64,000 bases of DNA, from positions 16,415 to 80,414 of the forward strand of contig JAFZRX010000010.1 in assembly GCA_017619675.1 (NCBI GenBank), written 5' to 3'. A program made the position numbers and the translations under genes. A model generated the notes under the pieces. The model was not told where the DNA came from. It worked only from the letters and a program-made list of their open reading frames with translations, and made no database searches. Shown here piece by piece: positions 24,849 to 49,264 of the stretch; the first letter of the stretch is position 1; every line of letters starts with the position of its first letter. The stretch is from Bacteroidales bacterium. Lineage in GTDB: Bacteria > Bacteroidota > Bacteroidia > Bacteroidales > UBA932.

Positions 24849-27680
24849 TTATTGAATCTCCTTGGCAGGACGTACTGAATAAGCATTGCTCTTGATGCCG
24901 TCCTGCATCGTACCTCCGTAATTGAACATAACGTTATAGTTGTCGCCGGATGCCTTTGAATTGATTAGATAGAAGGGGCCTGCATAAATGAGACCATTTG
25001 CTCTGAAACCGTGGTAGGGGAAGAGCATTTTCGGTCCACCGGCAGCAGTCGTATACAAAAGGTACCCAAGACCGTCTTCCGTCTCCGGATCCGGGGTGTT
25101 CCAACCGGAAGAAGCCGGACCGTTAGTGGTAAAGATGGAGAATGCCATATAATTGGGTACGCTGAAGCCCGGAGGACAGGGATCGTAGATAGATTTGACC
25201 ACTATTTTGTCCTTGTTCACATCAAAAACATAATCATGATAAGAATGACCATTTGAAGAGGTTTCCGTCACATCCCACAAGTTGTGCTGCTTGGAAGTTA
25301 CCCAGCCATACGAACTGCCACTAGTGTGGCAATATTGAATATGTGGATTCTGGATTCCATAGGACACATTTCCGGGAGAACTTGTCTGCTCCGTTGAATT
25401 GGAAATGGTTGTGTTGTTTTTCACTAAGGTATAGCCTGCAGGGGAGTAGGACTCCTTGTTGAAAGGATCCATAAGTTCGCCCTTCATTGGCAGGAACGGA
25501 TCCTTTCTGCCATACTGATAAAAGGTTGCGGAACCTATGAAGGTTCTGGTTGAGGTGGGGCCGGTCTGTGTAACGGCAAAAACGACAGCATCGGCATTAC
25601 CCTCGGTCTGGGTAACTTCTACAAAATATTTCCTTGGAGTATAGGAAAAATCGGTAATAACTTTTGTATCACACCATCCAAGATTGACTTTAAGCATCTG
25701 ATTGCTTGGAACTGTAGAACTGCGTGTTTCAACAGTCATGGTGCTAAGATCTGTGTCTGTAACCCAAATGTGCCAAGACCAGATGATGCGTTTCTCTCCA
25801 CTCTTTTCCCTGAGGGCAATGACTGCATTGCCCTGGCGGATGTTAGTATCATCTACATCAAATTTGATGTAAGGAACCGTCTTGGAAGTAGTCCCGTCCA
25901 ACTCTTTATATACGGCTGTAGTAGTAGGAGTGTCAACAACCTCGGCAGTGTTGATGAACAGTTTGTCACTTGTAACATCTTCCCAAACGATGACTGCCTC
26001 GACTTGATCTTCGGTCAGATGCGTATCATCAAGTATGTAAGGAGAAGTGATGCCTGTATTGAGATAATTCCTGAATCTGTGAAGGACGTAATAATTTTCA
26101 GAATCCCAGCCATTGCCCAAACCGTCGTAGTATGAGCCGACATTTAATCCGCTGGAAGGAACCTTTTCCCAATCTATGGCATTGCCATATACAAGAGGGA
26201 ACATATACCATCCGGCCTTGTCAACGACGTATGAGTTGGCTGTCTTGACTGTTCCACGGGGACTGGCCAGGTTGTTGATATCATAGAGCGCCAGGTCTTG
26301 AGGAGAGGCGGAAGTGGCTCCGTTGTTTCCTTTTCTCTTGAGGATAGCGATATGTTCATTAATTTCATTGAGTGTTTCAGTTTCTACTACTGACATTTCA
26401 CTGTAAGAACCTGTCAGAGTGAAAGGATCATCTGCACCCTGTTCGGGTGTGTGTGCGCCAACGAGCAGGGGTTCAAGCCAGTCAGGCAGGTCGGCGGACC
26501 ACTGCTCAAGATTGTTGCCGTCATCATCAGCAGGGGAGTAGCGGAATGTCATTGCAACTTCCTCTACATCAGCGCCTTTAGTCTTGTAAGATTTGATTGT
26601 CTTTGTGGCGGTGCCTGCCGTGGGGTCATCTCTTACCATATCGGTGCCGGGTTCTACTTCCTCAAGGGTGTAGGTCCAGCCGTCGCCGGGAACGCCCACG
26701 TTGGTGATGCGGTATTTCTTACCGGCCTCGAAGGTGATGAAGGTGTATTCAGTGGCTCCCTCCTCCTTGCGCTTGAGGGCAAGTTCCCTGGTGGAGTCGT
26801 CGGACAACGTGAACACCATTGAAAGGTTGGTCAGATTCTGCGGCAGTGCGAAGACAGTGAATGTTACGGGGCTGTCTGCAGTGACTGCGACATTTCCAAG
26901 GGAAACGTTAATGGCTGTCGCTCCGTTTGCTATGTTTGTAATGGTGCAGTTTGCGAGGTCATCGCTTATGGCTGCGGTGAAATCTCCCGCAATGACAGGA
27001 GAGTCAGCGTCATTGTCAGTCTTGAGGGTGAATGATTTCAGGGCGAGGCCTTCAGCCACGCTTGTGCCCACGGTGAACTCGAAGGTTGTCATGAGGGGCT
27101 TGAATCCCAGGTTGACATTGTTGCCCGGTGCGGCCTGGGTTGCGGCCCACATGAACGCGTAGTTCATATCGGGCTTGAAGACCTTGGAGCCGGATTCTGC
27201 GGTTACCACCTGGGTTGCAGGGATGGTAGCCGTGATCACGTTGCCGTTGAGGCTGACCTTGCTTGCGTCCGTAAAGTTCTCTGTATTGGGAGAAGGGTAA
27301 AGGGCGTAAATTGTGTGGGTGGCGTCTGAAAGCCAGGTGAGAGGGTTCCCGACGCTCTTCACCTTAGCGTTGCTGTTCTGCTGGTTGCTCGCGTCCGTCT
27401 CGTGGGATTCGACGCTGTAGTCACCGTTTTCCTTGGTGCTGGCGTCAACCTGCGCCCAGATGCGGAGGAGGTCCTCATCCACCCAGTTGATGCGTTCGTA
27501 CTTGGTCTCGTCGCCAAAGAATTCGCCGCTGTACTCGGTACGGGTGCCTATTCCGTTCTGGTAATAGGTGTTCGCGGTGAAGGTGATTGGCTTGCCTACG
27601 CCGGAGCCTTTTGAGAACTCGTTGAAGTCACAACTTGCCAGTGTGAACAGGGCGGCGAGGAGTAAAAATGTTTTTTTCAT
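24849..27680 (-). CDS. Large fimbrillin-family lipoprotein with C-terminal DPCPPGF domain (locus 1, first gene)
   Basis: About 943 residues from ATG 27680; the longer reading to 27719 would start upstream of the predicted transcription start. The lipoprotein signal is MKKTFLLLAALFTLASC (Cys at 17). The N-terminal Mfa-like domain is nearly the same as in the neighbouring gene. The C-terminal part has IVVKSIYDPCPPGFSVPNYMAF (about 829) and a Tyr/Gly-rich end, again like the Fibrobacter major-paralogous type. It is the first gene of the locus 1 operon, preceded directly by a consensus promoter, and unlike the other fimbrillin genes it has no 56-residue peptide before it. It may be an adhesive or tip protein; this is inferred from family and order. 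Confidence 0.85.
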   Translation of the reverse strand: MKKTFLLLAALFTLASCDFNEFSKGSGVGKPITFTANTYYQNGIGTRTEYSGEFFGDETKYERINWVDEDLLRIWAQVDASTKENGDYSVESHETDASNQQNSNAKVKSVGNPLTWLSDATHTIYALYPSPNTENFTDASKVSLNGNVITATIPATQVVTAESGSKVFKPDMNYAFMWAATQAAPGNNVNLGFKPLMTTFEFTVGTSVAEGLALKSFTLKTDNDADSPVIAGDFTAAISDDLANCTITNIANGATAINVSLGNVAVTADSPVTFTVFALPQNLTNLSMVFTLSDDSTRELALKRKEEGATEYTFITFEAGKKYRITNVGVPGDGWTYTLEEVEPGTDMVRDDPTAGTATKTIKSYKTKGADVEEVAMTFRYSPADDDGNNLEQWSADLPDWLEPLLVGAHTPEQGADDPFTLTGSYSEMSVVETETLNEINEHIAILKRKGNNGATSASPQDLALYDINNLASPRGTVKTANSYVVDKAGWYMFPLVYGNAIDWEKVPSSGLNVGSYYDGLGNGWDSENYYVLHRFRNYLNTGITSPYILDDTHLTEDQVEAVIVWEDVTSDKLFINTAEVVDTPTTTAVYKELDGTTSKTVPYIKFDVDDTNIRQGNAVIALREKSGEKRIIWSWHIWVTDTDLSTMTVETRSSTVPSNQMLKVNLGWCDTKVITDFSYTPRKYFVEVTQTEGNADAVVFAVTQTGPTSTRTFIGSATFYQYGRKDPFLPMKGELMDPFNKESYSPAGYTLVKNNTTISNSTEQTSSPGNVSYGIQNPHIQYCHTSGSSYGWVTSKQHNLWDVTETSSNGHSYHDYVFDVNKDKIVVKSIYDPCPPGFSVPNYMAFSIFTTNGPASSGWNTPDPETEDGLGYLLYTTAAGGPKMLFPYHGFRANGLIYAGPFYLINSKASGDNYNVMFNYGGTMQDGIKSNAYSVRPAKEIQ
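26655..27680 (-). repeat. Duplicated segment, copy 2 (N-terminal part of fimbrillin-like gene)
   Basis: Partner of the segment at about 23630-24650. The two differ mainly by scattered substitutions and small indels (for example around TSVAEGLALKSF), then diverge strongly downstream. Confidence 0.85.
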
Positions 27681-34241: not shown

Positions 34242-35372
34242 TCAGGAGAATTTCAGTAGGAAGAGGGCCGTTTCTGACGGGGTAGGTGCGGGGTGAATGA
34301 CAACAAAAAGAAGGCAGTAATTTTTTTCATATCCACCAGTTCCTTCTTTATATCGTCGTCTATGCTGCGGTAGCCGCTCCTTCACCTTCTTGTACAGGTT
34401 TCCCGCAAATGTGCGCCTGGCCATATGGCTGCTCGCGATATCGCAGATGCGCACCTTGCGCTCCGTGCGGGTGAGCGGGTCCAGCACCGTCACCATCCGG
34501 TCCACGCCCACCTTCTCGCAGATTTCCTTGATGGCCTCGTTGTATTTCTGCGTGGAGATGAAGGGCAGGAGCTTGTCGGTGGGGGAGGAAGCGTATCGGG
34601 CCGCAATTGTCCTGGCTGTTTCGTTAAGGGGATGACTATGGTCTTGGGGTTCTTGGCTATGGTCTTGTGCGGGATGTACTGCAGCGCTCCGTCTATCACG
34701 TCGGTTTTCTTGAAACTGAGGAGGTCGCCCACGCGGCAGCCAACGCAGCACTGGAACACGAACACGTCCCGTTGCCGCTCCAGGCGGGGGCTCGCGCTTG
34801 TCAGGGAAGGCCTGGAAGAATTCAGGGTGTTCTTTATATATAAGGTATTCTTTTTCAGTGAACTCCCAGAGGTCGATCAGGAGGTTGGTGTCAAAGAAGC
34901 GGAGGTCCGTGTCGCGGGCGTAGGCGCTGTCTGCGCGGCCCTTCTTCCAGAGAAGGAAGCGCAGTACCAGGCGCCGGAGGACCTCATATTGCGAAATTCT
35001 GCTGTCAGAAAGCTCATGTACATGCAGGAATTTGTCAAATGCCGCGTTAAATGTATAGCTGCCCCTGTTTCCAAAGTATTCTTCAAGGGCGTCGCGCAGC
35101 CATCGGGGGCCAACCCTGGTGGTCAGGCTGTCGTTGATGAACTTACGGGTAAGATGCTTCCGGAGCGCGGATATGGCGTCGTTGACGCTTTCCCAATCCA
35201 GTTCTTCCGGGCATTTGGAGGCGTTTAGGAGTTCAAGTTTGCTGTTCCAGGCGGCGGGAAGTACAATTATGTTGGTGCTGCCTGTCTGGTCCGTTGAGCG
35301 TCCGTCCCGGAGGCGTACATAGAGTTTTGACAGTTTGGAGGATTGTCCTCTGGTGAAATAATTGATAGTCAT
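34242..35372 (-). pseudogene. Tyrosine recombinase (integrase), decayed
   Basis: A Bacteroidales-type integrase with an arm-binding N terminus (MTINYFTRGQSSKLSKLYVRLRDG) and a SAM-like domain (NAAFDKFLHVHELSDSRISQYEVL). The open frame is continuous but not faithful. Near 34787 an extra C in a C run shifts the frame, so the box I segment CVGCRVGDLLSFKKTDVIDG lies in another frame. Near 34625 a missing C in a second C run shifts it back (PLNETARTIAARYASSPTDK). HMARRTFAGNLYKKV (box II H-x-x-R) is present. Just after it roughly 20 codons, including the expected SGH box, are missing, and the tyrosine-containing end (YRSIDDDIKKELVDM) is again out of frame. It is almost certainly inactive. Such enzymes often sit next to fimbrial or capsule loci as phase switches. 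Confidence 0.88.
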
Positions 35373-35473
35373 GGATTTGAAATTAGTGTTATCCCCAATA
35401 ATTCCCCACAATGGCTTCTGTGAGGCCCTATTAAAGATTCGAAAAAAAAATTAAAGAAAAAAATGCAAGAAAT

Positions 35474-35505
35474 ATTGTATATATAAGTGAATATGCATAA
35501 CTTTG
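35474..35505 (+). promoter_or_regulatory. Promoter of fimbrial locus 2, unit A
   Basis: ATTG at 35474-35477, a 20-nt spacer, then TAACTTTG at 35498-35505: a good Bacteroides-type promoter. Transcription would start near 35512, leaving a leader of about 77 nt before the 56-residue peptide. The leader holds a small GATTC/GAATC hairpin around 35550 and nothing else recognisable. Confidence 0.75.
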
Positions 35506-35588: not shown

Positions 35589-35759
35589 ATGAAAAAGCAT
35601 TACGAAAAAATGTGTATGACCCCCCTCGGGTTTGTATTCGAGGGAAATCTTCTTCAGGCTTCTATAGTAACTGAGGAATCGATGGTCTCAACAACCGGTC
35701 AGAAAACGGAATCGTACGATTTCTCTGATGCGGACACGTTTAACACTCAATGGGAGTAA
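35589..35759 (+). CDS. Conserved 56-residue peptide before a fimbrillin gene, copy 2
   Basis: 56 residues, starting MKKHYEKMCMTPLGFVFEG and ending YDFSDADTFNTQWE, with the invariant core LLQASIVTEESMVSTTGQ at 21-38. No signal peptide or helix that could span a membrane; the C-terminal half is acidic and rich in Ser and Thr. Its stop (TAA 35757-35759) is 5 nt before the fimbrillin start, and the last codons (TGGGAGTAAGGA) provide a purine-rich stretch ahead of that start, so translation of the two is likely coupled. It is the first gene after the unit A promoter. Not recognised as any named family. Confidence 0.88.
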   Translation: MKKHYEKMCMTPLGFVFEGNLLQASIVTEESMVSTTGQKTESYDFSDADTFNTQWE

Positions 35760-35764: not shown

Positions 35765-37294
35765 ATGAAAAAAGCAAGAATTCTTTTCCTGCTCTTAGCA
35801 GGAGTGCTCCTTTTGGCGGGATGCCAGAAGGAAGGAAGGATTGGCGGCAAGGACGCCATCCGTTTCTCAGCAGAATCCAACCCCGGTACCAAGACGGTTT
35901 ACGCTGGCGAAGGCGCCAACGGCCGTGAGCGTATCAACTGGAGGGAGAATGATGAGATTCGCATCTTCAGCGACAAGTCTGAGCATCGTTATCACGAGGG
36001 CCAGCACTGGGCTGATTACATCATCACAAGCGTCAGCAACAGCGGATCCGTGAGCAAGGGTAAGATTGACAACGTACCCGGAGACGGCACAGGCAACGGA
36101 CTGGTCTGGAAGGAAGCCGGAGACTACAAGTTCTTCGCCATCTATCCCCCTCAGGACCAGGAGTACGGCCATAAGGGTAAATTTGTCGCAAACATACCTA
36201 ACATACAGGCCATTGACATAACCACCAGGGCGCCTTTTACTCCAAGCATGGACTACGCCGTCATGACCGCAGCCACAAACATTACCACTAGCGTGGACGG
36301 TGAAGGCCCAACCATCAATATGGAGTTCGAACCGGCCTACACTGCATTTGAGTTCACCTTCAATTCAGACATGCCCCTGGAGATTACCCGTATGGTTCTG
36401 GTAAGGTTAAATTCTTCAACCGGAGAAATGTACCCTCTTGCAGGCCAGTATTCGATTGAATACGATGAAGACCAGAACGTTTCTTATAATCCGACTTCTG
36501 CCACGAATGTAATTATTGTCGCGTTCGATGAGCAAAAGCCAAAGGTAACTGCAGATGATTCTTTCACTTTCTCTGCTTTTACACTGCCTATTGACATCTC
36601 TAATCTTGAATTTTCTTTAACTGTCAAGGCTGATGACTGGGATGCTGCAGAGACCCGCGTTCTCAAGCTGTACTACAAGAACGGTGAGCCTGTAACATTC
36701 GCAGGAGGCCTCAAGCACAAGATTTCCGCAACCATCCAGGGTGCATACAACTTCAAGTCCATCACCTTGAACGGTGAGGCTGTAGACTGGACGGAAGAGA
36801 CCATTACAACCAATTCCAATGAAACTCCCCAGGCATCCCAGTTCGCTGTTACCGGAGAGGATGTCTTCAACGTCTATGACAAGTCCGGACAGCAGGCCCA
36901 GTACAAGCCCCTCCGCCAGACCTGGGTTCTCGGGAACAATCTTGCTACTGTATCCTTCAAGATTTTCTCGCCGGTTGACGGCAAATACCGCATCGAGCCT
37001 TTTGTAAAGAAAGCCGACGGCACCACCATCGTTGAAGGCGCAGGCGATTTTGTGGTCACTTACGAAACGGGAACCAACGAAGGATACATAGGAGATCCCG
37101 ATACAACTATTCATGAGTCAACCAGTGTGTCATTCACGATTGACGCAAGTAATGCCCAGGCGGGAGACCAGCTCTTCTTCAAGACATATGCTCTCTCCAA
37201 TGACGGCTCATCACAGTTCAGCCTGGATTCCGAGACACAGCTGTATGATCTCCGAGGATATCATTACTTCAGATATGACAATCCGCTTGATTAA
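35765..37294 (+). CDS. Fimbrillin-family lipoprotein, unit A
   Basis: About 509 residues from ATG 35765 (an upstream overlapping ATG at 35750 is rejected because it gives a worse signal peptide). The lipobox is LLLLAGVLLLAGC (Cys at 20). The Mfa-like domain begins IRFSAESNPGTKTVYAGEG, then RINWRENDEIRIFS and HRYHEGQHWADYIIT. Near the C terminus it has ATVSFKIFSPVDGKYRIEPF and a Cys-free beta-strand tail. The length is somewhat above the usual major fimbrillin (350-450). It is probably a structural fimbrial subunit exported as a lipoprotein and processed at the surface. It is followed 16 nt later by the 811-residue lipoprotein. Confidence 0.88.
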   Translation: MKKARILFLLLAGVLLLAGCQKEGRIGGKDAIRFSAESNPGTKTVYAGEGANGRERINWRENDEIRIFSDKSEHRYHEGQHWADYIITSVSNSGSVSKGKIDNVPGDGTGNGLVWKEAGDYKFFAIYPPQDQEYGHKGKFVANIPNIQAIDITTRAPFTPSMDYAVMTAATNITTSVDGEGPTINMEFEPAYTAFEFTFNSDMPLEITRMVLVRLNSSTGEMYPLAGQYSIEYDEDQNVSYNPTSATNVIIVAFDEQKPKVTADDSFTFSAFTLPIDISNLEFSLTVKADDWDAAETRVLKLYYKNGEPVTFAGGLKHKISATIQGAYNFKSITLNGEAVDWTEETITTNSNETPQASQFAVTGEDVFNVYDKSGQQAQYKPLRQTWVLGNNLATVSFKIFSPVDGKYRIEPFVKKADGTTIVEGAGDFVVTYETGTNEGYIGDPDTTIHESTSVSFTIDASNAQAGDQLFFKTYALSNDGSSQFSLDSETQLYDLRGYHYFRYDNPLD

Positions 37295-37310: not shown

Positions 37311-39746
37311 ATGAAAAAACATATAATACTTACAATCCTTGCGGCCGCCGGCGCTCTCCTGGCTTCCTGTACGAGTTTCGAGCCGGTTGAGATTCCCGGA
37401 GACGGCTTCACCCTGGCGCTCGACAGCGGCTCCATGACCACCAAGGCCGACGGAGAGGTTTCCTTTGAAGATGTCATCACCGGCTTCGACTACTTCTTCT
37501 TCGACGATGCGGACGGAACTGTCCCTACGGAAGGCATGCATGGCCACGTGGCTGACGCCAGCACCATTACTTTGCAGACCGGCCTGGGCCAGGACTTCGA
37601 GGCCCTGAGGACCGGCACCCACTATGTATACATCCTCGCCAACTATCCTACGGCCATAGGCCACTCCCAGGACTATAAACTGGAGGACCTTCTTGGAATG
37701 AAGTTTAAGAGCGACCTGGCCCAAAGTGCGGATGACGAAGGAAACGTCACTTTCGCCAGCAGCCTGGTCATGGATTCATACAATCCCTCTACCGGGAAAT
37801 ACCTGGTGAAGCTCACTCCTACGATGATACAGGAGCAGCGCAGGGAGACCGTCAAGCTGAGCCGCGTCGCCGTCAAGCTCTCCTTCACAATCAATGTCGC
37901 AGAGAAAGTGGAGGGAACGATGGGCGACACCTGGAAGCCCCTCACCGACTACATCCAGGCTTACTTCGTTAACGCCCTGAACAACATGACACTGCTCAGC
38001 GGGGAGCCGGTAAGGCGCGCCGTCCCGGATCCTCTCGCAGGCCCGGACCTCGCGTACTATACCTATCCGACCAACTATCCGCTCGGAGGCCAGGATCTCG
38101 CTTTCACTTCAGGTCCTTACTACACATATCCCCAGACATGGAACATTGAGGACAACGGAGAGCCGTACCTGAAGATCTACCTGCCCTGGATCAGCGACTT
38201 GAGGGGAACCTCCGACTTCTACTACAAGGTGGTCCTCCCCGAGCAGGTGAATGAGAAATGGACCCTGGAGCGCAACTGCTGGTACAACGTCACCGTGAAC
38301 CTTTCAGTGGTGGACACCGCCACCGATTACATAGAGGTGGACGGCAGCTATACCATCCATCCTTGGAGCGGCAGCACCGATCCTGGCTCAAGCCCGATCA
38401 GTTCAGCACGCTTCTTTGACGTGCCCACAAAGGAATATCATCTTTACAGTCAGGACGATATCAAGGTCCCGTTCTCTTCAAGCTCTGCTGTCAGTGCATA
38501 CTTTACCCATATCACTTACACATATTATGGAGCTTCAAACGGAGTATTGGCAACGTATGTGTTCGATTATACAAAAGATGACAACAAAACAGATTTTGTC
38601 CTTCCCAATCAGGATACTTCAGATCCGCCTCAGACAGTAGTCGCAAAAGCAAAAGATCCCAATTCGTATAAACTTGCTGTCGAGAATAAGAACGTGGTAT
38701 TTACACATGCCTTGAATGAAGTTTATACTGAACGTACCATTACTTTTGTAATAGAGAATCTTGAAGGACGTTCTGAAACAGTTACTGTTATCCAGCATCC
38801 AGCAATCGAAATCAAAACCCATACAACTAAAAACGGTTTTGTAAATGGATGGTTTGCCCGTGCTACCAAAGGCGTTAAAGACGGCGATGGCAATTTGATG
38901 GGAGTAGGTCCTTATACTGCAACCCATTTTGGTGGAGGAGAGTATTACCATGCTTCTACTTATTGGTATACAAATAGTTCAGGACCTAGAATCGGAGAGA
39001 ATGCCAATACATTGGGCATAGGTATTCTATATGGTGATTGTACTACCTCGGTACATGCCGACTGTCTGTTTGACACTGAAGTTACCGTAAGTGCGTTCAC
39101 TGAAGATAATAACTCCTATACTATAAAGTATACAGGAACCGGTGCCGGAACATATACCCGTCATTTTAGAATAGGAGACCCCCGTGTCCCTGCTTCTACC
39201 GTTTCTGGTTTCAGTCTTCCTGATTACCTTTACAGTGACAAAGTTCATCGTGATCCGGCTACTGACGAACAGATTGAAGGATCGGCAAATGACATGCGTC
39301 CATGGGATAGTCCTCTGGAAATATTGATTGCTAATCAAAATGTTTCAGCGAATGAAGTCATAGCTCCTAGATTCCTTGTTTCTTCTAACTTCAACAATAT
39401 GTCCAGTTGGCCGCTGTCCAATGCAAATTGCGTCAGGAGAGCTGCAACTTATCAGGAGAATGGTTATCCTGCCGGTCGTTGGCGCCTCCCTACAGAAGCG
39501 GAGATAAACTTTATGATGACCTTGCAGCAGAAAGGTATCATTCCTGAACTGTATGCTTTTGGAAGCTCATATCAATGCGCAAATGGAAGAGCCATTACAA
39601 TTGCAGCAGATGGTACCCGTACTTCTGTAGATCCCAAAACTGCATATGTCCGCTTTGTGTATGACCTCTGGTATTGGGGAGACGAACAGATGGATCCTGA
39701 TGTTTATCATCCTAACATGCATCTTGTGGCACCTAATCAGAACTAA
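37311..39746 (+). CDS. Large fimbrial accessory/tip lipoprotein, unit A (811 residues)
   Basis: Signal peptide with lipobox LLASC (Cys at about 20). The N-terminal half (about 20-360) has the layout of minor fimbrial subunits of the FimB/Mfa2 type: VITGFDYFFFDDADG, HYVYILANYP, RVAVKLSFTIN and a central DTATDYIEVDGSYTIHPW segment. The C-terminal half ends in GYPAGRWRLPTEAEINFMM (about 721-739) and AYVRFVYDLWYWGDEQ, a module also present in the 816-residue protein of unit C and reminiscent of the Fibrobacter major-paralogous domain. From about 38440 the DNA becomes clearly AT-richer, so the C-terminal half may have a different origin. Probably an anchor or tip adhesin. Confidence 0.8.
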   Translation: MKKHIILTILAAAGALLASCTSFEPVEIPGDGFTLALDSGSMTTKADGEVSFEDVITGFDYFFFDDADGTVPTEGMHGHVADASTITLQTGLGQDFEALRTGTHYVYILANYPTAIGHSQDYKLEDLLGMKFKSDLAQSADDEGNVTFASSLVMDSYNPSTGKYLVKLTPTMIQEQRRETVKLSRVAVKLSFTINVAEKVEGTMGDTWKPLTDYIQAYFVNALNNMTLLSGEPVRRAVPDPLAGPDLAYYTYPTNYPLGGQDLAFTSGPYYTYPQTWNIEDNGEPYLKIYLPWISDLRGTSDFYYKVVLPEQVNEKWTLERNCWYNVTVNLSVVDTATDYIEVDGSYTIHPWSGSTDPGSSPISSARFFDVPTKEYHLYSQDDIKVPFSSSSAVSAYFTHITYTYYGASNGVLATYVFDYTKDDNKTDFVLPNQDTSDPPQTVVAKAKDPNSYKLAVENKNVVFTHALNEVYTERTITFVIENLEGRSETVTVIQHPAIEIKTHTTKNGFVNGWFARATKGVKDGDGNLMGVGPYTATHFGGGEYYHASTYWYTNSSGPRIGENANTLGIGILYGDCTTSVHADCLFDTEVTVSAFTEDNNSYTIKYTGTGAGTYTRHFRIGDPRVPASTVSGFSLPDYLYSDKVHRDPATDEQIEGSANDMRPWDSPLEILIANQNVSANEVIAPRFLVSSNFNNMSSWPLSNANCVRRAATYQENGYPAGRWRLPTEAEINFMMTLQQKGIIPELYAFGSSYQCANGRAITIAADGTRTSVDPKTAYVRFVYDLWYWGDEQMDPDVYHPNMHLVAPNQN

Positions 39747-39758: not shown

Positions 39759-41858
39759 ATGAAAACTATAAGATATATTGTTTCAGCAATTGTTCTGGCT
39801 GCCGGGCTGATTGCCTGCCAGCGTGAAATAACCCCCGACGTACAATTGTCTGTACCTGACGACGATGCCGTAATGGTCAGCTTCAAGGTGCAGTTCCCCG
39901 AACCTGTTCCCGTAAACACCAAAGGCCATATGGGAGAAGGTCCTACCCTTGCCGACGGATTCGACCTGTGGTTCTGCGTTCTCGGCCCTGGTGACGGATT
40001 CGTCCAGAACTGGGTACAGGCTGATTTGAAAACCCCTTCCACGACGAACGGATATATTACCGGAGGCGAATTCACAGTAATGCTTCCGATCTCTGACGAC
40101 AAGCGCGTCCTCGAGGTCATAGCCAACCCTCCGTTCCCCATACCTGCAGAGGGAGAGGACCTAGTACCTCCGGTCGGTGACTATTTCTATAATGTCCTTG
40201 AGAAACTTATCAACGAAAAGGGCACGGACAACGAAAGCTCCTATTGGCAGGAGATTGTCCTTGAACGCGGTATCAGAAGGCATCTGAACGGGAACACATA
40301 TGTTCCTGACGATGATCTTGTCGCCGCCCTTGAGAACATTCATCTAGTCCGCAATTTCGCAAAGTTTTCCGTAATTTCATCTGGTGTAGAAGACTTCACC
40401 ATCGGACGTTGGACTCTTGTTAATGTTCCCGACAAGGCATACGTTGCTCCTTTCGACGGCAGCCACAGTCTCACTTTCCCTTTGGGATACACTGATATCG
40501 TATCCTATACCAGCGGAGATGCCCTTCTTGCACAGCTTACTGGATATGATCCTGAAGGACAATTCAATTATCCCAATCCTGATTATTATCCCGGTTACTT
40601 GCCTCCAGAAGCGACAATTGTCGAGAACTTCCTCGGTGAGCCGGATGACTTCCCGGACGCATACGCAGATGCCTCTGCCTCAGGTTCATTATACATGTAT
40701 GAGCGCCCGATCCCTACCAGCAGTCAGGTGCAGACCGCAGTATTGATGGAAGTGACTTTCGGCGATCATATTGTTACTCAGAATTACAACCAGCTGCACT
40801 ATAACCAATCCACAGGTACTTATGATGAAGGATTCCCTGTAGATGAAGTAACATTCTGGTATAAAGTGGAGTTGCTTGACAAAGAAGGTCAATATGAGCC
40901 ATTCCTCCGCAATATTGCATATCGTCTTGATGTCAAAGAGATAGAAGAGGCGGGAGAACTTACAGCGACAGATGCTTTAAGAGGAGCATATTTCGGTAAT
41001 ATTTCCGCATCACTTGAAACGGCGTCGCTCAATGAACTCTCCAACGGCACTTCGTTGATCCATGTAGACCAGATGGATTACACCTTCATGATCGGATCAA
41101 CAGATGGCGTGACCAAAGAAGAACTGCTCATGTTCGGAGATCATGCGGCACAATTCTATTTCATCCCGGATCAGTCAACAGGTACGATGTATTACCAGGA
41201 TGAAGAAGGGGTTTGTGAAGTTAGGACTGATATCCTCCCTGTAGCAGGTTATCAAGCGGCTGTAACCAGTCATGTGACAAACGCTGATGCTGGAGGAAAT
41301 GGTGCTATAAAGGTAACCCTTGCCAAAACTGGTGACAAGGTTAAGAAGAGTATTATCCGTGTCAGCGGCAAGAGCATCGCCACAAACAAGACAATATACC
41401 GTGAGATTGTCATCAATCTGATGGAGACCCAGTCCTTCGCACACGGTGACGATGTTACCGCCATTACCAACACCCCTGTCATCAGCGGAGCCGGTAATGA
41501 GGTGGATATCACTATATACCTGCCTGAAGACCTCGGAGCGTCTATTTTCCCTGTCCAGGTAAGGATTGAGGCGGAGAACAACAGTCTTTCTGCAACATCT
41601 GCCGACCTTCCTGTAGCTACGGGTAAGTCAATATTCGATGAAACCCGCAACACTTATTACTTCATAAAGACCATCAATTACAGCGATTACTGCAAGCTGA
41701 ACCCTAGGACCAAGAAGTACGAGTACACCTATGCCTTCCCGATGAAATTCTACACGAATAAGCCTGGAGACAACTCCACACAGATATACTTAGGCGATAT
41801 GGCAACTCCTGCCAGATTCAACTCTACGACTCTGACGCTGGGAACAGTTACTCCTTAA
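39759..41858 (+). CDS. Fimbrial minor-subunit lipoprotein, DUF4906-like, unit A (699 residues)
   Basis: Lipoprotein signal MKTIRYIVSAIVLAAGLIAC (Cys at 20). The N-terminal strand AVMVSFKVQFPEPVPVNTKG (about 36-55) and the long middle domain (FDLWFCVLGPGDGFVQNWV; LIHVDQMDYTFMIG) resemble the DUF4906 proteins that accompany fimbrillins. The last 75 residues (NTYYFIKTINYSDYCKLNPR ... LTLGTVTP) form a module shared with the fimbrillin of unit B. It starts 12 nt after the 811-residue gene and is the last gene of unit A. Exact role (anchor or tip) not determined. Confidence 0.78.
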   Translation: MKTIRYIVSAIVLAAGLIACQREITPDVQLSVPDDDAVMVSFKVQFPEPVPVNTKGHMGEGPTLADGFDLWFCVLGPGDGFVQNWVQADLKTPSTTNGYITGGEFTVMLPISDDKRVLEVIANPPFPIPAEGEDLVPPVGDYFYNVLEKLINEKGTDNESSYWQEIVLERGIRRHLNGNTYVPDDDLVAALENIHLVRNFAKFSVISSGVEDFTIGRWTLVNVPDKAYVAPFDGSHSLTFPLGYTDIVSYTSGDALLAQLTGYDPEGQFNYPNPDYYPGYLPPEATIVENFLGEPDDFPDAYADASASGSLYMYERPIPTSSQVQTAVLMEVTFGDHIVTQNYNQLHYNQSTGTYDEGFPVDEVTFWYKVELLDKEGQYEPFLRNIAYRLDVKEIEEAGELTATDALRGAYFGNISASLETASLNELSNGTSLIHVDQMDYTFMIGSTDGVTKEELLMFGDHAAQFYFIPDQSTGTMYYQDEEGVCEVRTDILPVAGYQAAVTSHVTNADAGGNGAIKVTLAKTGDKVKKSIIRVSGKSIATNKTIYREIVINLMETQSFAHGDDVTAITNTPVISGAGNEVDITIYLPEDLGASIFPVQVRIEAENNSLSATSADLPVATGKSIFDETRNTYYFIKTINYSDYCKLNPRTKKYEYTYAFPMKFYTNKPGDNSTQIYLGDMATPARFNSTTLTLGTVTP

Positions 41859-43078: not shown

Positions 43079-43093
43079 AGATACATTATATTA

Positions 43094-43122: not shown

Positions 43123-43154
43123 TATCGCAAAATAAAATGAATATCCAAACATAA

Positions 43155-43307
43155 AGACGCGTTCAATTCCCCCTCGGATTCATTTTTGAGGGTAATCTTC
43201 TTCAGGCATCTATAGTAACTGAAGAGGCTATGGTTTCCACAACCGGTCAGAAAACGGAATCGTATGATTTCTCTGATGCGGACACGTTTAACACACAATG
43301 GGAGTAA
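43155..43307 (+). pseudogene. 5'-truncated copy of the 56-residue peptide, copy 3
   Basis: From about 43169 on, the frame matches copy 2 (PLGFIFEGNLLQASIVTEEA, then the same ending and stop at 43305-43307). Upstream of that the similarity stops: the first eleven codons are gone, an in-frame TAA lies at 43152-43154, and the first in-frame ATG is residue 32 of the family (43230), which would leave 25 residues. There is one extra change in the core (Ser to Ala). The break lies about 50 nt beyond the ATPase palindrome, which suggests that arrival of the ATPase gene removed the start. Confidence 0.8.
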
Positions 43308-43312: not shown

Positions 43313-44845
43313 ATGAAAAAGGTAAGAATTCTTTTCCTGCTCCTTGCAGGAGTGCTTCTTCTGGCGGGATGCCAGAAAGAAGGAAAGATTGGCGACAAGG
43401 ACGCCATCAGGTTCACTGCATCTTCCAATCCTGGAACCAAGACTGCGTACAGCGGTGATGTTGTGAACGGCTATGAGCGCATTGAATGGAACATGGGGGA
43501 CAAGATCCGCATTTACAGCAATGTCGCAGAGCATCGTTACCATGAAGGCCAGCACTGGGCGGACTACCAGATTACGGAGATCGTAAGCAACACCGGTGTC
43601 AACAGCAAGGCCAACATTGACAACGTTCCGGGAGACGGACACGGCAACGGACTTGTATGGGGAGACCCCAATGTCTATGAGTTCTATGCGATTTATCCTA
43701 ATCTGGATTGCGCAGACGGTGCATCAGGAGTACTGTCGGCTACCATCCCGGCAGATCAGGTATGTACCGCATCCTCCAACGTATATGATCCGGACATGGA
43801 TTATGCAGTGATGACCGCATATCAGGTGATGGATACTAATACTGAAGAGGAGGGAGACCTTGACCTTCCGTTCTCTCCTGAGTTCACTGCTTTCTCATTC
43901 GATCTCAAGAGCAAGGACCGTGAGATTACAGTGACCAAGTTCGAACTGCTCTCAGAGGAAACTCCAATTGCCGGTCCGTTCACCGTTTCTTACAACGGCG
44001 GCAAGAGCTACGGCTTCAGCGGCGCAACTGATAAGGTTGTCACCCTTGCATTTGAGAGTGGAACCACCATTTCCACAACCCAGAACCTGAAGTTCACCGT
44101 ATTCGCCCTTCCTAGGAACCTTAGCATGCTCTCAATCCGCTTCACAATCCTTTCTGACGATCCTAACGAGACTCAGACCCACACATTGAAACTTGCCAAG
44201 AAGACAGGTGAGACCCTTACTTATATGGATTTCCCCGCTTGCGGCAAGTACAACTTTGAGGGAATCCAGATGGAAGGCTCATGGAGCTTCAAGACCATCA
44301 CCCTCAACGGGCAGGTTATGGAGTGGAAAACTTCTGAAGTTTCCCTTTCATCAGATGATCTTCCTCAGGCTACCCAGTTCGTGGTTACAGGAGCACAGAA
44401 TGTTTATAGTGACCTCCATCCGACCAGCACGGAAGCCAAGGAAAAGTATCGTCAGACAGGGGTTATCGATCCCAGGGAACCGGCAAAGGTAACCTTCAAG
44501 ATATTCTCACCTGTTGGTGGGACCTACGAGATAAAGCCTATGAACCGTCTCTTCTCAGTTGCTGGAGATCTTAGTGGCCAAATCAATGAGCGCACAGATG
44601 ACGGTGTTACCACAGTAAAACTCACAATCACTCCAACCCGCAATACGTTCTACTTTATCTATACGATAAATTATTCTGACTATTGCAAGCTTAATCCAAG
44701 GACAAGGAAATACGAATATACTTACGATTTCCCTCTTGCGTTCTTCACGAATAAGAGCACTGACAATTCAACTAGAATTTTGATTCGTGATCTGAAGGGA
44801 GACTTCAATCCTAAGGAACTTGCCCTTGGTACTGTAACTCCGTAA
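43313..44845 (+). CDS. Fimbrillin-family lipoprotein, unit B
   Basis: About 510 residues from ATG 43313; lipobox LLLLAGVLLLAGC. The first 120 residues are very close to the unit A fimbrillin (IRFTASSNPGTKTAY, EHRYHEGQHWADYQIT, NIDNVPGDGHGNGLVW), but the last 75 residues (NTFYFIYTINYSDYCKLNPR ... LALGTVTP) match the C terminus of the DUF4906-like protein of unit A instead. It is a single-gene unit: a terminator follows 24 nt after the stop, and no accessory genes accompany it. Because its peptide copy and probable promoter region were lost, its expression is uncertain; no clear TAnnTTTG promoter is seen between the ATPase and this gene. Confidence 0.87.
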   Translation: MKKVRILFLLLAGVLLLAGCQKEGKIGDKDAIRFTASSNPGTKTAYSGDVVNGYERIEWNMGDKIRIYSNVAEHRYHEGQHWADYQITEIVSNTGVNSKANIDNVPGDGHGNGLVWGDPNVYEFYAIYPNLDCADGASGVLSATIPADQVCTASSNVYDPDMDYAVMTAYQVMDTNTEEEGDLDLPFSPEFTAFSFDLKSKDREITVTKFELLSEETPIAGPFTVSYNGGKSYGFSGATDKVVTLAFESGTTISTTQNLKFTVFALPRNLSMLSIRFTILSDDPNETQTHTLKLAKKTGETLTYMDFPACGKYNFEGIQMEGSWSFKTITLNGQVMEWKTSEVSLSSDDLPQATQFVVTGAQNVYSDLHPTSTEAKEKYRQTGVIDPREPAKVTFKIFSPVGGTYEIKPMNRLFSVAGDLSGQINERTDDGVTTVKLTITPTRNTFYFIYTINYSDYCKLNPRTRKYEYTYDFPLAFFTNKSTDNSTRILIRDLKGDFNPKELALGTVTP

Positions 44846-44973: not shown

Positions 44974-45005
44974 TTTGTTTTGTATGGGAGTAAGGCCTAT
45001 CTTTG
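44974..45005 (+). promoter_or_regulatory. Promoter of fimbrial locus 2, unit C
   Basis: TTTG at 44974-44977, a spacer of exactly 20 nt, and TATCTTTG at 44998-45005: a very good Bacteroides promoter. Transcription would start near 45012, about 70 nt before the 56-residue peptide. The spacer holds ATGGGAGTAAGG (44984-44995), the same 12 bases that end the peptide genes of copies 2 and 3. Confidence 0.8.
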
Positions 45006-45254: not shown

Positions 45255-46787
45255 ATGAAAAGAGCTAGAATGTTTTTCCTGCTCTTTGCAGGAGTACTCT
45301 TTTTGGCGGGATGCCAGAAGGGTTTTAATGAGAGAATAGGAGGAGCGGAGGTGCGTTTCACCGTTGCTTCCAATCCTCAGACGAAGACCGCCTATGACGG
45401 CGGAAGTTATAACGGATATGACCGTATCAGTTGGATTGACGGCGACCAGATCCTTATCTGGGGCGACAACGCCCGCGTTAGGGAGTCTGACCCTGCTGTA
45501 AGGAACGCCGCTTATGATATTGACGGTACCTCCGTACAGAACAATAACAACAAGAGTACGGCAAAGCTCGTGAAGAAGGAGACCGGAGGTCTTGTTTTTG
45601 ACGAGGGCGCCAGCTCTTACAATTTTGCGGCCATTTACCCGGCTTCAGGTTTCAGCGCAATAACAATGACCGATGAGGGCGTTGTTACGGCTGTAAAGCC
45701 TGAAATCCCGGCGGCACAGACCCTGACAGACGGATTCCCTGACATGACCAAGGCCGTCCTGATGGGAACACCTGTGAACGTGGGATACATGGAAACTGTT
45801 TCTCTCCAGTTCAACCCTATTTACACCATGCTCCAGTTCAGCATTAACGCTGAGAAGGACATGAAGGTTACGGGCGTGGACTTTATTTCTTCCAAGGTGG
45901 AGAATGAAGGCAGCACCTTTGGCCCGTCCGTATTGAACGGACCTTACGAGCTCAGGTGCAGCTTCACCCAGGGCTGGTCCATCATCGTTCCTGACGAGGC
46001 TACAGAGCAGAACAGCAAGACTACCGTCACTTTCGCAAGCCCTATCGAGCTTACCAAGGAAGAGGGCGCAGCCACCACCAATACCGCTACATTCGCAGTT
46101 CTGGCAGTGCCTCAGGATATCACGGGCCTTTCCATCGTCTTCCATGTAACTACTGACGACGGCGACCAGACCCGTACCCTCACAGTTTCCTACGCAAAGG
46201 ACGATGCCAACGGTCATTACAGGAAGGGAGATCCCGTCAACTTTGAGAAATGCAAGAAGCACAACATCACCGGCATCACCCTTCCGGCCAACATGGCTCC
46301 TAACGTAGCCCTTGACCTCAAGGTTATCCCCTGGGAGGATGAGACAGGTACAATTACCTACGGCCCCGGCCAGCCTGTTGTAAGCGCTATCGCCCTTGAA
46401 TACGCTTCAGGAGCCGCAATCAACGAAGGCGAGGAAAGAAGGCTCAACAACAACTTTGCGAACGCCACAGATCCTATCAAAGCCTACTTCTACGTATTCT
46501 CTCCTACCGATGCAACCTGGAAGATTAAGATTACAGGCGCTACCGATAAGTTTACCGTAACATCAGCCAATGCCACCAGCACCAGCGCAAAGGAGCTCTC
46601 AGGAGCTGTGAACGGCAATACCACCAACCCTGGCCGCGTAGACTTCACCATTGCCAGGAACGGCGCAACCGCTTCCGATAAGATCCAGCTAACATTCTCT
46701 CTTATGCTTGGAGACCGCGAGATGAGCATAGACTCAGAGATTATCCGCGGAAAGGAATTGACAATTACAGGTAAGGTAGGACAATAA
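45255..46787 (+). CDS. Fimbrillin-family lipoprotein, unit C
   Basis: 510 residues from ATG 45255; lipobox FLLFAGVLFLAGC (Cys at 20). The Mfa-like domain opens VRFTVASNPQTKTAYDGGSYN and RISWIDGDQILIWGDN, and has FNPIYTMLQFSINAEKDMKVTGVDF in the middle. The end (PGRVDFTIARNGATASDKIQ) is of the same kind as unit A's fimbrillin and unlike unit B's. Its signal peptide is clearly related to those of units A and B, but the mature part is the most divergent of the three. The next gene starts 8 nt after its stop. Confidence 0.88.
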   Translation: MKRARMFFLLFAGVLFLAGCQKGFNERIGGAEVRFTVASNPQTKTAYDGGSYNGYDRISWIDGDQILIWGDNARVRESDPAVRNAAYDIDGTSVQNNNNKSTAKLVKKETGGLVFDEGASSYNFAAIYPASGFSAITMTDEGVVTAVKPEIPAAQTLTDGFPDMTKAVLMGTPVNVGYMETVSLQFNPIYTMLQFSINAEKDMKVTGVDFISSKVENEGSTFGPSVLNGPYELRCSFTQGWSIIVPDEATEQNSKTTVTFASPIELTKEEGAATTNTATFAVLAVPQDITGLSIVFHVTTDDGDQTRTLTVSYAKDDANGHYRKGDPVNFEKCKKHNITGITLPANMAPNVALDLKVIPWEDETGTITYGPGQPVVSAIALEYASGAAINEGEERRLNNNFANATDPIKAYFYVFSPTDATWKIKITGATDKFTVTSANATSTSAKELSGAVNGNTTNPGRVDFTIARNGATASDKIQLTFSLMLGDREMSIDSEIIRGKELTITGKVGQ

Positions 46788-46795: not shown

Positions 46796-49246
46796 ATGAG
46801 TATGAAAAAGATAGCATTATTGATCTCAGCCGTTGCGGCTCTTGCCCTGACTTCCGCTTGTAACATGAAGGCAGACTTCCCGGAGCCGGCTTCAGAGAAT
46901 GCAATTTCCATTGACCTTGTCTATGCCGCCCCTGGAACCAGGTCAGACGGCACTGAGAAGGAGAACAAGATCAATTCAGTAGATTATTTCTTCTACACAG
47001 ATACAACCCTTGCCCCTGTTTTCAAGACCAGGGACGAGAACCCTAGCGTTACCGGAAACATTTATTCCATCAACGTAGTAGCCGGAGAGAACGGCGTGCC
47101 TCGCGTTTCCCAGTTGTTTTCCAACAACAATCAGTTTGAGGTTTTTGCAGTTTTCAATTCCACAGAGGCTATAACCGCCGCTCCTCTCGCTACATTGAAG
47201 CAGAAGGCAGTGGGCGTCACATTCGCCCATCAGGAGGATGGCCAGTGGGTGCCTACTTCAGACAATGACCTCGCAGGCAATGACAAGTATTTTGTCATGA
47301 CAGGCCAGAAGACTGTGAAGCGCGCTACCAGCGGCAGTTACGCGAATGTCCAGGGCGATGCAAAGACCGTGGACATGAAGCGTGTGGCCGCAAAGGTTTC
47401 TGTTAAGCTTTACATCAAGAAACAGGTAGAGCAGTCCTCTACAGTTCACTGGATCCCTATGGTAGACGATCCTACCCTGGTTCCCGCCATCAAGGGAAAT
47501 GTACGCATGTATATGTGCAACTTTGTACAGAATTCCATCCTGAGCGCTACGAATCCTACTCCGGCTCTGCCCGCAAGTTTGACTCAGTCAGACTACAAGC
47601 CCTATACGCTTGCTACCGGACCGGATGACCGCACGGAGACTAGCACTGACTATGTAATTGCCAGCCAGCAGGACTACTACACATATCCTATACAGTGGAC
47701 CCCGGGTTCCGTTACCGAGCCTTATATCAAGCTTGTCCTTCCCTGGAGGATGAAAGAAGGCTTTACAACCCAGAAGGAGGTCTATTACAAGATCCTTTTC
47801 CCGGCAAGCATCACAAGCATAGAGGCCAACAAGCACTATCAGCTTGAGGTCAACGTCTCATTGCTTGGCATTGAGGGCGTGCCCGTGGTAACAGTCAGGG
47901 GATACAACGCCAAGGTCCTGCCTTGGGTTTCTGACCAGTCAGTCAACTCTGCCGTCAGCAACGCGAAGTATCTTTCTGTAGAGAAAAACAGTTCCAAGTA
48001 TTTCACCCAGAACAACGGTATTTCATTCGTGGCCAGCGACCAGGTTTACCTTGAGATCACTGACGTATATCAGGAAAACCTCAAGACCGGCGCAATGGAG
48101 TACATTGTTGAGGACGGTGAACTTACTGACCAGCGTGATGATCTTGGTGCAAGGTCCTTCATCATGGAAAACGGCCGTATTGTTGGTTTGACGGTCGGAG
48201 ATGGAGATAAGGCGGAAGACTGGATTAAGCTTAGCAACACTGCAAGTTTCCTTGAAACCGGTCATAAACTCAACGCCAACCTTGCATCAGAGCATCTCGA
48301 CGTTACTCCTTGGCATTACAATGTCACCATGAAGCTCGTGGGTGCTGATGCCACTTACGACAGGGCAGTCACCTTTGAGCAGTGGCCTAACCTGTATATT
48401 GACAAGGATCCCAACAGTAACAACGGCGCTGCCAATAACGTGGGCGTGTTTGTAAACAACCACCAGGGCGGCAGCAACACTTACGATAAGGGAAAACCCA
48501 GTGGAACCAGCATCTGGGGGAATCAGACATATACCAATGACGGTACATTCAATTTGGGTAATGTCAGTGGTCTGACAGGCTCAAATACTAACCCCAACAT
48601 GTACGTTATCACCATCAGTGTAAGTGATACCTATGATATTGGAGATCCAAGATCCAAGGAAGAGAATAACTTCCCTGATTTCTATCATGCCACAAACTGG
48701 AGTGTTTTAAATTTGGGTTATCTTGATACCGAGTCCAACTGGGCGTCCGCTCCCGGAATTGAGGGTGGAAGCAACCGCAGGCTCCAGCACTATCATCCTG
48801 CAGCTTCAGACGAGGCTCTCAAGGATATGATCGCTCCAAAGATCAGGATCGCATCTTCTTACGGTGTATCTTCTGCCCTTGGCAGCAGGGAAGAGGCCCA
48901 GCTCCGCTGCGCAAGTTATCAGGAGGACGGCATCCCTGCGGGACGCTGGAGGCTCCCTACACTTGCGGAAGTCAAGTTCATCAGCTCTCTCTCCGCACTC
49001 AACCGTATCCCTTATCTTTTTGCAAACGAAGAAGGCACTACCGGTTTCAACTCAACGACATATTATTGGACAGCCAGCGGACAGATCGCAGTCAACAACG
49101 GAGCTCAGACAGCACAGGAGCCTACAACCCAGAATGGAACCGCCTATGTACGCTGCGTCTATGACGAGTGGTTCTGGGGCGATGCAATGACCACCAGGCC
49201 GGTATCAAACAAGAGGACATTCACTTGGGGAGACCGTGCATATTAA
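46796..49246 (+). CDS. Large fimbrial accessory/tip lipoprotein, unit C (816 residues)
   Basis: Counterpart of the 811-residue protein in unit A. Signal peptide with lipobox ALTSAC (Cys at about 22); a start two codons later (ATG 46802) is equally possible. N-terminal features match the minor-subunit type (INSVDYFFYTDTTLAP; FEVFAVFNS; RVAAKVSVKLYIKK). The C-terminal part has GIPAGRWRLPTLAEVKFIS (about 713-731), TTYYWTASG and GTAYVRCVYDEWFWGD. The pair shares domain order but has diverged extensively, more so in the region between the two halves. Unlike unit A, its base composition is even along the gene. Confidence 0.8.
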   Translation: MSMKKIALLISAVAALALTSACNMKADFPEPASENAISIDLVYAAPGTRSDGTEKENKINSVDYFFYTDTTLAPVFKTRDENPSVTGNIYSINVVAGENGVPRVSQLFSNNNQFEVFAVFNSTEAITAAPLATLKQKAVGVTFAHQEDGQWVPTSDNDLAGNDKYFVMTGQKTVKRATSGSYANVQGDAKTVDMKRVAAKVSVKLYIKKQVEQSSTVHWIPMVDDPTLVPAIKGNVRMYMCNFVQNSILSATNPTPALPASLTQSDYKPYTLATGPDDRTETSTDYVIASQQDYYTYPIQWTPGSVTEPYIKLVLPWRMKEGFTTQKEVYYKILFPASITSIEANKHYQLEVNVSLLGIEGVPVVTVRGYNAKVLPWVSDQSVNSAVSNAKYLSVEKNSSKYFTQNNGISFVASDQVYLEITDVYQENLKTGAMEYIVEDGELTDQRDDLGARSFIMENGRIVGLTVGDGDKAEDWIKLSNTASFLETGHKLNANLASEHLDVTPWHYNVTMKLVGADATYDRAVTFEQWPNLYIDKDPNSNNGAANNVGVFVNNHQGGSNTYDKGKPSGTSIWGNQTYTNDGTFNLGNVSGLTGSNTNPNMYVITISVSDTYDIGDPRSKEENNFPDFYHATNWSVLNLGYLDTESNWASAPGIEGGSNRRLQHYHPAASDEALKDMIAPKIRIASSYGVSSALGSREEAQLRCASYQEDGIPAGRWRLPTLAEVKFISSLSALNRIPYLFANEEGTTGFNSTTYYWTASGQIAVNNGAQTAQEPTTQNGTAYVRCVYDEWFWGDAMTTRPVSNKRTFTWGDRAY

Positions 49247-49264
49247 TATTTGGGAGGAAAAAGA

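Follow-up and report, generated by a model that had tools for sequence, protein, structure and literature searches.

In gut Bacteroidales, the choice of capsule is set by UpxY and UpxZ together with DNA inversion. Bacteroidales promoters carry a -7 element with the consensus TAnnTTTG. The UpxZ protein is larger than the peptide of about 56 residues that is the subject here, and we know of no counterpart of this peptide in the classical Fim and Mfa operons. The choice among pilus operons is much less clear than that among capsules, and the peptide provides a concrete handle on it: a conserved small protein is often encoded exactly between an antiterminator and the first pilin, and different cassettes are joined there across species. 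In the sections of PMC7315117 consulted, UpxZ is described as repressing non-adjacent capsule operons by interacting with UpxY, and CPS8 as the only capsule locus of Bacteroides thetaiotaomicron with FimA homologues.

We analyzed a 64-kb stretch of DNA (the window), in which a search of the organism's own genome with the peptide encoded at 35589 found four copies, three intact and one front-truncated (Table 1). We tentatively interpret the peptide, at somewhat less than an even chance, as an operon-specific cytoplasmic regulatory protein that links exchangeable control fronts with equally exchangeable pilin cassettes. A preliminary description of the window had reported three intact ORFs of 56 amino acids, all of which were found where it placed them. 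It had also given a spacing of 2-5 nt before the fimbrillin starts, and we measured 5 nt (35589), 2 nt (24653), 4 nt (45080) and, for the truncated copy, 5 nt. Its count of four in five fimbrillins preceded by the peptide is right if the first genes of operons are counted; the fifth (24849-27680, minus strand) has no peptide in front, and more lipoproteins sit inside the operons. The truncated copy keeps about 45 C-terminal codons, with codons 22-56 nearly unchanged. Neither a signal peptide nor a lipobox is apparent by eye in the peptide; given the missing signal peptide, its location is probably cytoplasmic.

Table 1 Features of the window (positions in the 64-kb stretch)
Feature	Position	Strand	Remarks
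Fimbrillin-like lipoprotein gene directly after peptide 24653	21729..24650	-	Part 23676-24458 passes Mfa_like_1
Intact peptide gene, 56 aa	24653..24823	-	Between two tandem fimbrillin-like genes
Fimbrillin-like gene, tandem sister of 21729..24650	24849..27680	-	59% aa identity to sister; no peptide before
Decayed tyrosine-recombinase gene	34242..35411	-	Divergent from peptide 35589
Bacteroidales-type -7 promoter element (TAACTTTG)	35498..35505	+	91 nt before ATG of peptide 35589
Intact peptide gene, 56 aa	35589..35759	+	Head of fimbrial operon 1; family HMM E 1.9e-23
Inverted-arm motif CCCTCG-N10-CGAGGG, candidate recombination site	35623..35644	+	Inside codons 12-19 of peptide 35589
Fimbrillin-like lipoprotein, operon 1 gene 1	35765..37294	+	
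Operon 1 gene 2	37311..39746	+	Front part: weak FimA match (PF06321, E 7e-4)
Operon 1 gene 3	39759..41858	+	Homologous to third genes of G323 and G170
Front-truncated peptide copy	43155..43307	+	Codons 1 to ~11 gone; no start codon
CCCTCG-N10-CGAGGG, one mismatch	43171..43192	+	In truncated copy
Fimbrillin-like lipoprotein after truncated copy	43313..44845	+	Stretch matches 81 aa of operon 1 gene 3 (63%)
Bacteroidales-type -7 promoter element (TATCTTTG)	44998..45005	+	82 nt before ATG of peptide 45080
Intact peptide gene, 56 aa	45080..45250	+	Head of third operon
Fimbrillin-like lipoprotein, third operon gene 1	45255..46787	+	Mfa_like_1 24 bits, below cut-off
Third operon genes 2 and 3	46796..51046 (46796-49246, 49250-51046)	+	

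The identification of the downstream proteins as fimbrillins has support but is not assured in every case. For the 24650-21729 protein, one fragment exceeds the Pfam Mfa_like_1 cut-off (E 9e-13), although the whole protein has no Pfam match; a fragment of the 45255 protein narrowly falls short of the same cut-off of 27 bits, and operon 1 gene 2 scores 20.2 bits against PF06321 (cut-off 21.4). Fragments of the 35765 and 43313 proteins had no Pfam match, but BLAST relates both proteins to the 24650 protein (E 8e-21 and 3e-26). The downstream proteins have a lipobox. The 56-residue peptide does not itself qualify as an Mfa_like_1 or FimA fimbrillin, having no lipobox by eye and no Pfam match. Because the fimbrillin at 43313 matches operon 1 gene 3, the unit headed by the truncated copy looks like the remnant of an internal deletion.

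Several other features of the window were noted. The two tandem genes at 21729-24650 and 24849-27680 share 74% DNA identity over 2 kb, and the only peptide gene of the pair lies between them. At 43092-43124, an AAA-type ATPase gene (41942-43078, minus strand) and the truncated peptide copy are separated by a perfect inverted repeat of 16 bp with a loop of 1 nt (TATTTGCGTTGCGAGA...), whose 27-bp core is unique within the window; the ATPase unit may have been inserted there. The arms of a 58-nt inverted repeat (81%) lie 44 kb apart (20004-20061 and 63935-63992), one of them at the window edge.

Searching 300 same-genus genomes with 14 seeds gave peptide matches in 91 genomes (E <= 0.1), or in 68 when the limit is E <= 1e-4; identities of 31-42% were seen for same-genus homologues. 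Outside the genus but within the same family, six genomes from three other genera have matches (E <= 0.01), which are strong in three (12/149 genomes in the family-level search overall, counting own and same-genus ones), and the order-level search matched 3/343 non-own genomes. The peptide is thus part of a wider Bacteroidales family, as the preliminary description had supposed, with homologues in 68/300 same-genus genomes and some beyond; in rumen and gut Bacteroidales it heads many pilus operons. With a broader, more diverse profile, 52/276 genomes match at E <= 0.3, many of them noise. We read 17 of these more distant loci, and 11 have a short [YF]xxP ORF at +11 to +80 nt before a lipoprotein gene; reading 29 order-search loci by motif turned up a single short [YF]xxP ORF (L178). 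Two of the distant loci are from a goat omasum Bacteroidales MAG and from the uncultured Bacteroidia MAG RUG10680, in which RUG presumably stands for rumen genomes. By motif rather than by the family profile, we also found in the own genome (L246:2239-2373, contig C6) a 44-aa ORF of [YF]xxP layout 25 nt before a gene for a 1556-aa lipoprotein.

Across 72 non-redundant members, a serine is invariant (72/72), an aligned tryptophan is present in 71, all 72 have a tryptophan among their last 12 residues, and one leucine, one glycine, one glutamine and one proline position are each more than 85% conserved. The N-half (about 27 residues, mean charge +0.8) has the motif [YF]xxPxVLxxVxVExxxIL.xS, and the acidic C-half (about 32 residues, mean charge -5.9) the motif VxTTGQEVxxxDFSD..FNHxWE. 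Pfam and NCBIfam scans of 48 members gave no credible model, only single-member matches to unrelated models at E above 0.01, so the family described here has no model in the libraries searched. No UpxZ model, which Pfam presumably includes, was among these matches. The peptide had no PDB match (best E 0.41), and a pilin alignment retrieved only lysine-tRNA ligases from PDB, at E above 0.05. No such peptide is described in the open-access literature searched, including the sections consulted of PMC9409006, PMC12632263, PMC10352776 and PMC7315117.

Selection was estimated as omega from Nei-Gojobori counts with a custom script. Between window copies (pairs with finite dS), omega is 0.07-0.10 over the whole ORF and 0.02-0.05 over codons 22-56, where dS is 0.48-1.7 or saturated and dN 0.01-0.10. 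The copies are thus well diverged silently while the protein is conserved, and recent gene conversion as the source of their likeness is excluded by the same values. Codons 1-21 are less constrained (omega 0.23 in the only pair with finite dS). The copies at 24653 and 35589 had been said to show two replacement against many synonymous differences; over codons 22-56 we count 2 non-synonymous and 13 synonymous changes (dS 1.09, dN 0.025, omega 0.023), and the associated claim that selection acts on the protein is upheld by the whole-ORF values, none of them near 1. Cross-genome pairs of at least 72% identity mostly give omega of 0.05-0.42 where it is defined. Chance ORFs are ruled out by the homologues in many genomes and the low omega.

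To describe the surroundings of the family we retrieved, from 63 genomes other than the own one, the 80 best-matching places (E of 3.4e-7 or better), leaving aside the contig-edge fragment G308:C60:5-91; some are near-identical, and the counts are not independent. Loci with more than 300 nt downstream were evaluable, and a lipoprotein ATG was sought from -12 to +45 nt of the peptide stop. Such an ATG occurs between -10 and +21 nt (median 12) at 73 of the 77 evaluable same-genus loci. Two of the four exceptions (L067, L070) are behind UpxY at the front of polysaccharide genes and a third (L074) adjoins polysaccharide genes; in the fourth (L110) an ATG at +3 opens a frame that soon stops, and a fimbrillin-like frame follows further on. 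Across the family, 22/65 downstream proteins match Mfa_like_1 (PF13149) at E <= 0.01. Three of the 65 downstream pilin-like lipoproteins match leucine-rich repeat models, as adhesive tips might.

The preliminary description had proposed a tight linkage to fimbrillins, and homologues mostly away from fimbrillins, which would have contradicted it, are not what the profile search found (73/77 lie before a lipoprotein start). The linkage is restricted, however, to a subset of fimbrillins. The peptide is absent at all 30 best-scoring Mfa_like_1 loci read in the genus and present at one of the 30 best-scoring in the order, which is the window's own; on these counts a link to fimbrillins in general was dropped. 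At two loci (L067/L252 and L070/L253, in genomes G060 and G016) the peptide follows UpxY with no fimbrillin seen, as judged from the first residues of ORFs over 12 and 16 kb. The peptides of these two genomes give omega 0.077, at a dS of 2.4 that is near saturation. Gene maps often place the peptide-pilin operon at one end of an exopolysaccharide locus and UpxY with a sugar-transferase-like gene (PF02397 in the one tested) at the other; in G057 and G220 some 26 kb lie between operon and UpxY. Pilin-like operons inside exopolysaccharide loci were seen at L308-L311, L320 and L321, and NTP_transf_5 nucleotidyltransferase genes (one tested) recur beside such operons.

A position directly before a lipoprotein gene in 73/77 loci, and +11 to +80 nt before one in 11 of the 17 more distant loci read, would also suit a cytoplasmic export or assembly helper, which binds the new pilin lipoprotein or the Sec/lipoprotein route and keeps the pilin exportable, its gene adjoining the pilin gene so that both products are made together. 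We consider such a helper unlikely, though deserving of attention. The best-scoring canonical fimbrillin loci do without the peptide, and the peptide is retained at the two UpxY-polysaccharide loci with no fimbrillin seen.

Among the 71 loci with 600 nt or more of upstream sequence, 29 have a upxY gene whose end lies no more than 50 nt before the peptide gene (28 by a strict-motif recount, plus L104 with UpxY at 30 nt), and in five further loci (L096, L100, L120, L124, L127) UpxY lies about 150-500 nt upstream. Ten of ten tested proteins, taken from 30 full-length ones, pass the cut-off of the NCBIfam UpxY model NF033644. We defined a UpxY subfamily by E <= 1e-40 to a profile of the peptide-adjacent UpxY proteins, scoring at most 11 candidates per genome; it is present in 59 genus genomes, and 91 further genomes have only a weaker UpxY. 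The subfamily occurs in 50/68 peptide genomes versus 9/232 others (p 2.6e-32), the peptide and UpxY samples being equated as the same 300 genomes on equal draw size and shared handles. Among the nine, four have weaker peptide matches and another (G266) has a peptide-like ORF by motif. Weaker UpxY proteins are depleted in peptide genomes (6/68 versus 85/232); no convincing peptide follows them at 16 loci, where two motif matches are unlike the family. The peptide was seen after 10 of the 22 subfamily-UpxY loci read, several of which ended at contig ends or in a misread frame, and 18/68 peptide genomes have no UpxY of the subfamily. This co-occurrence may reflect physical linkage, since UpxY and peptide-fimbrillin operons are often in one polysaccharide locus.

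No UpxY lies beside any peptide copy in the window, and the association, found outside it, goes beyond the earlier sequence-only reading, as do the recombinase remnant and the intragenic seam described below. A UpxY elsewhere in the own genome (C5:148190) was dropped as a trans partner of the window copies, its context being common to G001 and G325, two incomplete genomes with no peptide match. Promoter elements fall largely into the complementary set of loci: TAnnTTTG is present 30-220 nt upstream in 34/48 loci without adjacent UpxY, versus 4.2 expected from shuffles, and in 1/29 loci with it. From this distribution, the peptide gene appears to be either the first gene of its transcript or the one that follows UpxY. 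The truncated copy has no TAnnTTTG in the 260 nt before it.

Gaps this short, with some overlaps, could mean that the ORF is a translated leader: ribosomes would load at the constant front, read it and then be coupled to the fimbrillin start, possibly with nascent-chain pausing, and the peptide need not act once released. The last codons are often TGG GAG (GAG in 29/39 WE endings), which puts GGGAG ahead of the following ATG. Synonymous change dips to 0.19 at 6-10 codons from the end, against 0.26-0.45 in the other bins, and codons 48-52 (GCG GAC ACG TTT AAC) are identical in 4/4 window copies, unlike most other conserved codons, which vary synonymously. We nevertheless regard a leader as unlikely, on a par with the export helper. 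The whole-ORF omega (0.07-0.10) and the motifs in the two halves call for selection on the amino-acid sequence, a conservation that a pure translational leader fits less well; the peptide is retained where no pilin is seen downstream; with an adjacent UpxY the ORF is not the first gene; and the RNA fold at the peptide-fimbrillin junction is not unusual (mean z -0.06, n 72). A hairpin at this junction was rejected on the same values.

We then compared the two halves of the peptide with its neighbors, using Mantel tests on 27 UpxY-peptide-fimbrillin triples, whose p-values ignore relatedness among genomes. The split was made at the serine column (serine in 25/30 rows). Similarity of the N-half tracks UpxY (r 0.49, p 0.001) and not fimbrillin (r 0.11), while that of the C-half tracks fimbrillin (r 0.44, p 0.001) and not UpxY (r -0.01). 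For the whole peptide the correlation is higher with fimbrillin (r 0.38) than with UpxY (r 0.15, p 0.08; partial 0.12). Over all 73 peptides the correlations are 0.13 between the halves, 0.14 between N-half and fimbrillin and 0.24 between C-half and fimbrillin. The halves may each have their own partner, or crossovers may fall inside the peptide gene, or both; the correlations could also reflect the decay of linkage around crossovers and not contact with a partner.

Paralogues within a genome are more alike (N-half 0.51, C-half 0.57) than peptides of different genomes (0.27 and 0.32; 73 peptides, window copies not counted as one genome), and fimbrillins are hardly more alike within a genome (0.21; 22 pairs) than between genomes (0.15). 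In G288, near-identical C-halves precede fimbrillins of only 0.15-0.28 relative similarity. For the export helper these results cut both ways: C-half and whole-peptide similarity tracks fimbrillin, as it predicts, but the N-half tracks UpxY and the G288 C-halves are shared by dissimilar fimbrillins. A chaperone dedicated to each fimbrillin is disfavored because sister copies stay alike while fimbrillins diverge and because no fimbrillin is seen at two UpxY loci; such a pilin-specific chaperone fits the persistence, the repetition and the within-cell likeness of the copies less well.

At a single chromosomal locus, the three species represented by the window, G323 and G170 share the N-half and differ in the C-half/fimbrillin cassette, of which there are three. 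The flank of the window is orthologous in the other two, as its genes are 64-90% identical: against G323 a 188-aa gene is 90%, a PF04018 gene 84% and the next gene 66% identical, and this third gene is 64% identical to its G170 counterpart. Codons 1-21 of the window peptide share 94% DNA identity with G323, and DNA similarity to G170 covers the recombinase region, the promoter and the N-half and stops at base 35662, in codon 25. Behind the shared N-half, the three genes of the window cassette have 38-47% identity with G323's second operon (one with no peptide found in front of it), the G170 cassette is 44-58% identical to the window's third operon, and G323 itself has a third type. Judged from these alignments, the peptide gene forms a seam: regulatory fronts and pilus genes were exchanged there, with the reading frame kept.

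Recombinases are found near several of these genes. In G170, two divergent cassettes flank an intact 434-aa recombinase of the Phage_integrase family and have in common a repeat of 252 nt or more (89% complementary); the peptide of the left cassette is without its first codons and has no TAnnTTTG in the 260 nt before it. The recombinase gene of the window matches the intact G170 gene in four pieces and two frames, and as it is decayed, present-day cassette switching in the window is unlikely. Recombinases also adjoin peptides in G253 and G313 (both pass the PF00589 cut-off) and in G543 (which passes a SAM-like integrase domain cut-off only), and the G170 and G543 loci have inverted repeats. 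The truncated copies in the window (43161) and in the left G170 cassette both begin near codon 11-12; a defined 'silent end' common to them was withdrawn, as 56/500 shuffles score as high.

Inside the peptide gene, the motif CCCTCG-N10-CGAGGG is a further candidate feature. It occurs perfectly once in the window, in 35589, with one single-mismatch place, in the truncated gene, and six two-mismatch places; these eight compare with 3.6 expected, and 2/100 shuffles reach eight. In 357 loci (1.67 Mb with duplicates), the only other perfect copies are in the two G170 peptides. Their arms are identical and their spacers differ, whereas an inversion site would have identical spacers. Because of these spacers, and because the motif is partly fixed by coding, it is a lead only as a recombination site. 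If it were one, the conserved piece might be nothing but a tyrosine-recombinase crossover site for pilin switching, with the peptide incidental. The restriction of the motif to these peptides, the adjoining recombinases in four genomes and the inverted repeats in two agree with this, but we think it very unlikely: recombinases were recognized by eye among the upstream ORFs at only four of 80 loci (L121, L122, L126, L130), a simple tyrosine-recombinase crossover does not tolerate differing spacers such as those of the two G170 sites, strong amino-acid selection acts outside the site as well, and an inverted state was not seen.

The YxxP of the N-half resembles the lasso-leader motif YxxPxLxxxG, which raises the question of a RiPP-like precursor recognized by a PqqD-like protein. 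Three stand-alone PqqD-family proteins are encoded in the own 2-Mb genome, G000 (C1:402, C5:110135, C6:162135), with matches above the cut-off; the 44-aa YxxP-type ORF of L246, ahead of its lipoprotein gene, shares its locus with a stand-alone PqqD and a kinase-like gene; and an NTP_transf_5 gene is upstream of the peptide in L308. We give this origin hardly any credence, since no maturase was recognized by eye in the gene maps adjoining peptide genes, PqqD matches occur in 13/14 control genomes (three over the cut-off), so that their presence says little, and the kinase-like gene of L246 has no Pfam match. A double-glycine export leader was rejected on inspection because the alternating hydrophobic pattern does not fit.

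Returning to the regulatory interpretation, the peptide would be a small cytoplasmic protein encoded right at the head of a surface-structure operon, in most cases that of a type V pilus (fimbrillin). In evolutionary terms, its N-half would go with the control module upstream (a co-transcribed UpxY, or a promoter that in some loci has a tyrosine recombinase beside it) and its acidic C-half with the downstream pilin cassette, cassettes being exchanged at the in-gene seam with the reading frame preserved across it. Of this, the position, the selection, the separate evolution of the two halves and the three cassettes behind one N-half are observed. By acting with the expression machinery, be it UpxY, another complex of NusG type or the ribosome at the front of the operon, the peptide might set the expression of the operon that encodes it, in the way that UpxZ works as the second gene product of capsule operons. 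We infer this action on expression from the persistence of the peptide behind UpxY where no pilin is seen, from the apparent purifying selection, and from copies that are repeated operon by operon and stay alike though the pilins differ. A more general version appears doubtful, and we rate it as quite unlikely: an order-wide class of bipartite operon-front regulators of Bacteroidales pili, with this peptide as its first known member, in which the N-half reads the UpxY subfamily or an equivalent, the C-half identifies the pilin cassette, and the gene is an in-frame seam used by a recombinase to connect one expression front with alternative pilin cassettes.

Among known systems, type V pili (Mfa/FimA; PF13149, PF06321) are matched by the downstream lipoproteins and their often three-gene operons, although the peptide itself is not a pilin. 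CPS8 of B. thetaiotaomicron resembles several of our maps in having type V pilin genes inside a polysaccharide locus; it differs in that no small peptide gene is mentioned for it in the sections of PMC7315117 consulted, the comparison being by description only. As in invertible Bacteroidales surface loci with internal tyrosine recombinases, a recombinase lies between divergent peptide-fimbrillin operons and inverted repeats are present (G170, G543), but in our loci the repeats extend into a small protein-coding gene, and the N-half would putatively change at the seam. The UpxY/UpxZ pair of Bacteroides capsule loci shares with our loci a small second gene right after upxY (29/71 evaluable loci within 50 nt, none of them in the window), the position at the front of a surface-structure operon and the presence of several paralogous operons per genome. 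It differs in that the peptide has only about 56 residues, usually precedes pilins and in many copies is without UpxY. As a testable new player in surface control, the peptide could reveal whether pili have their own UpxZ-like layer.
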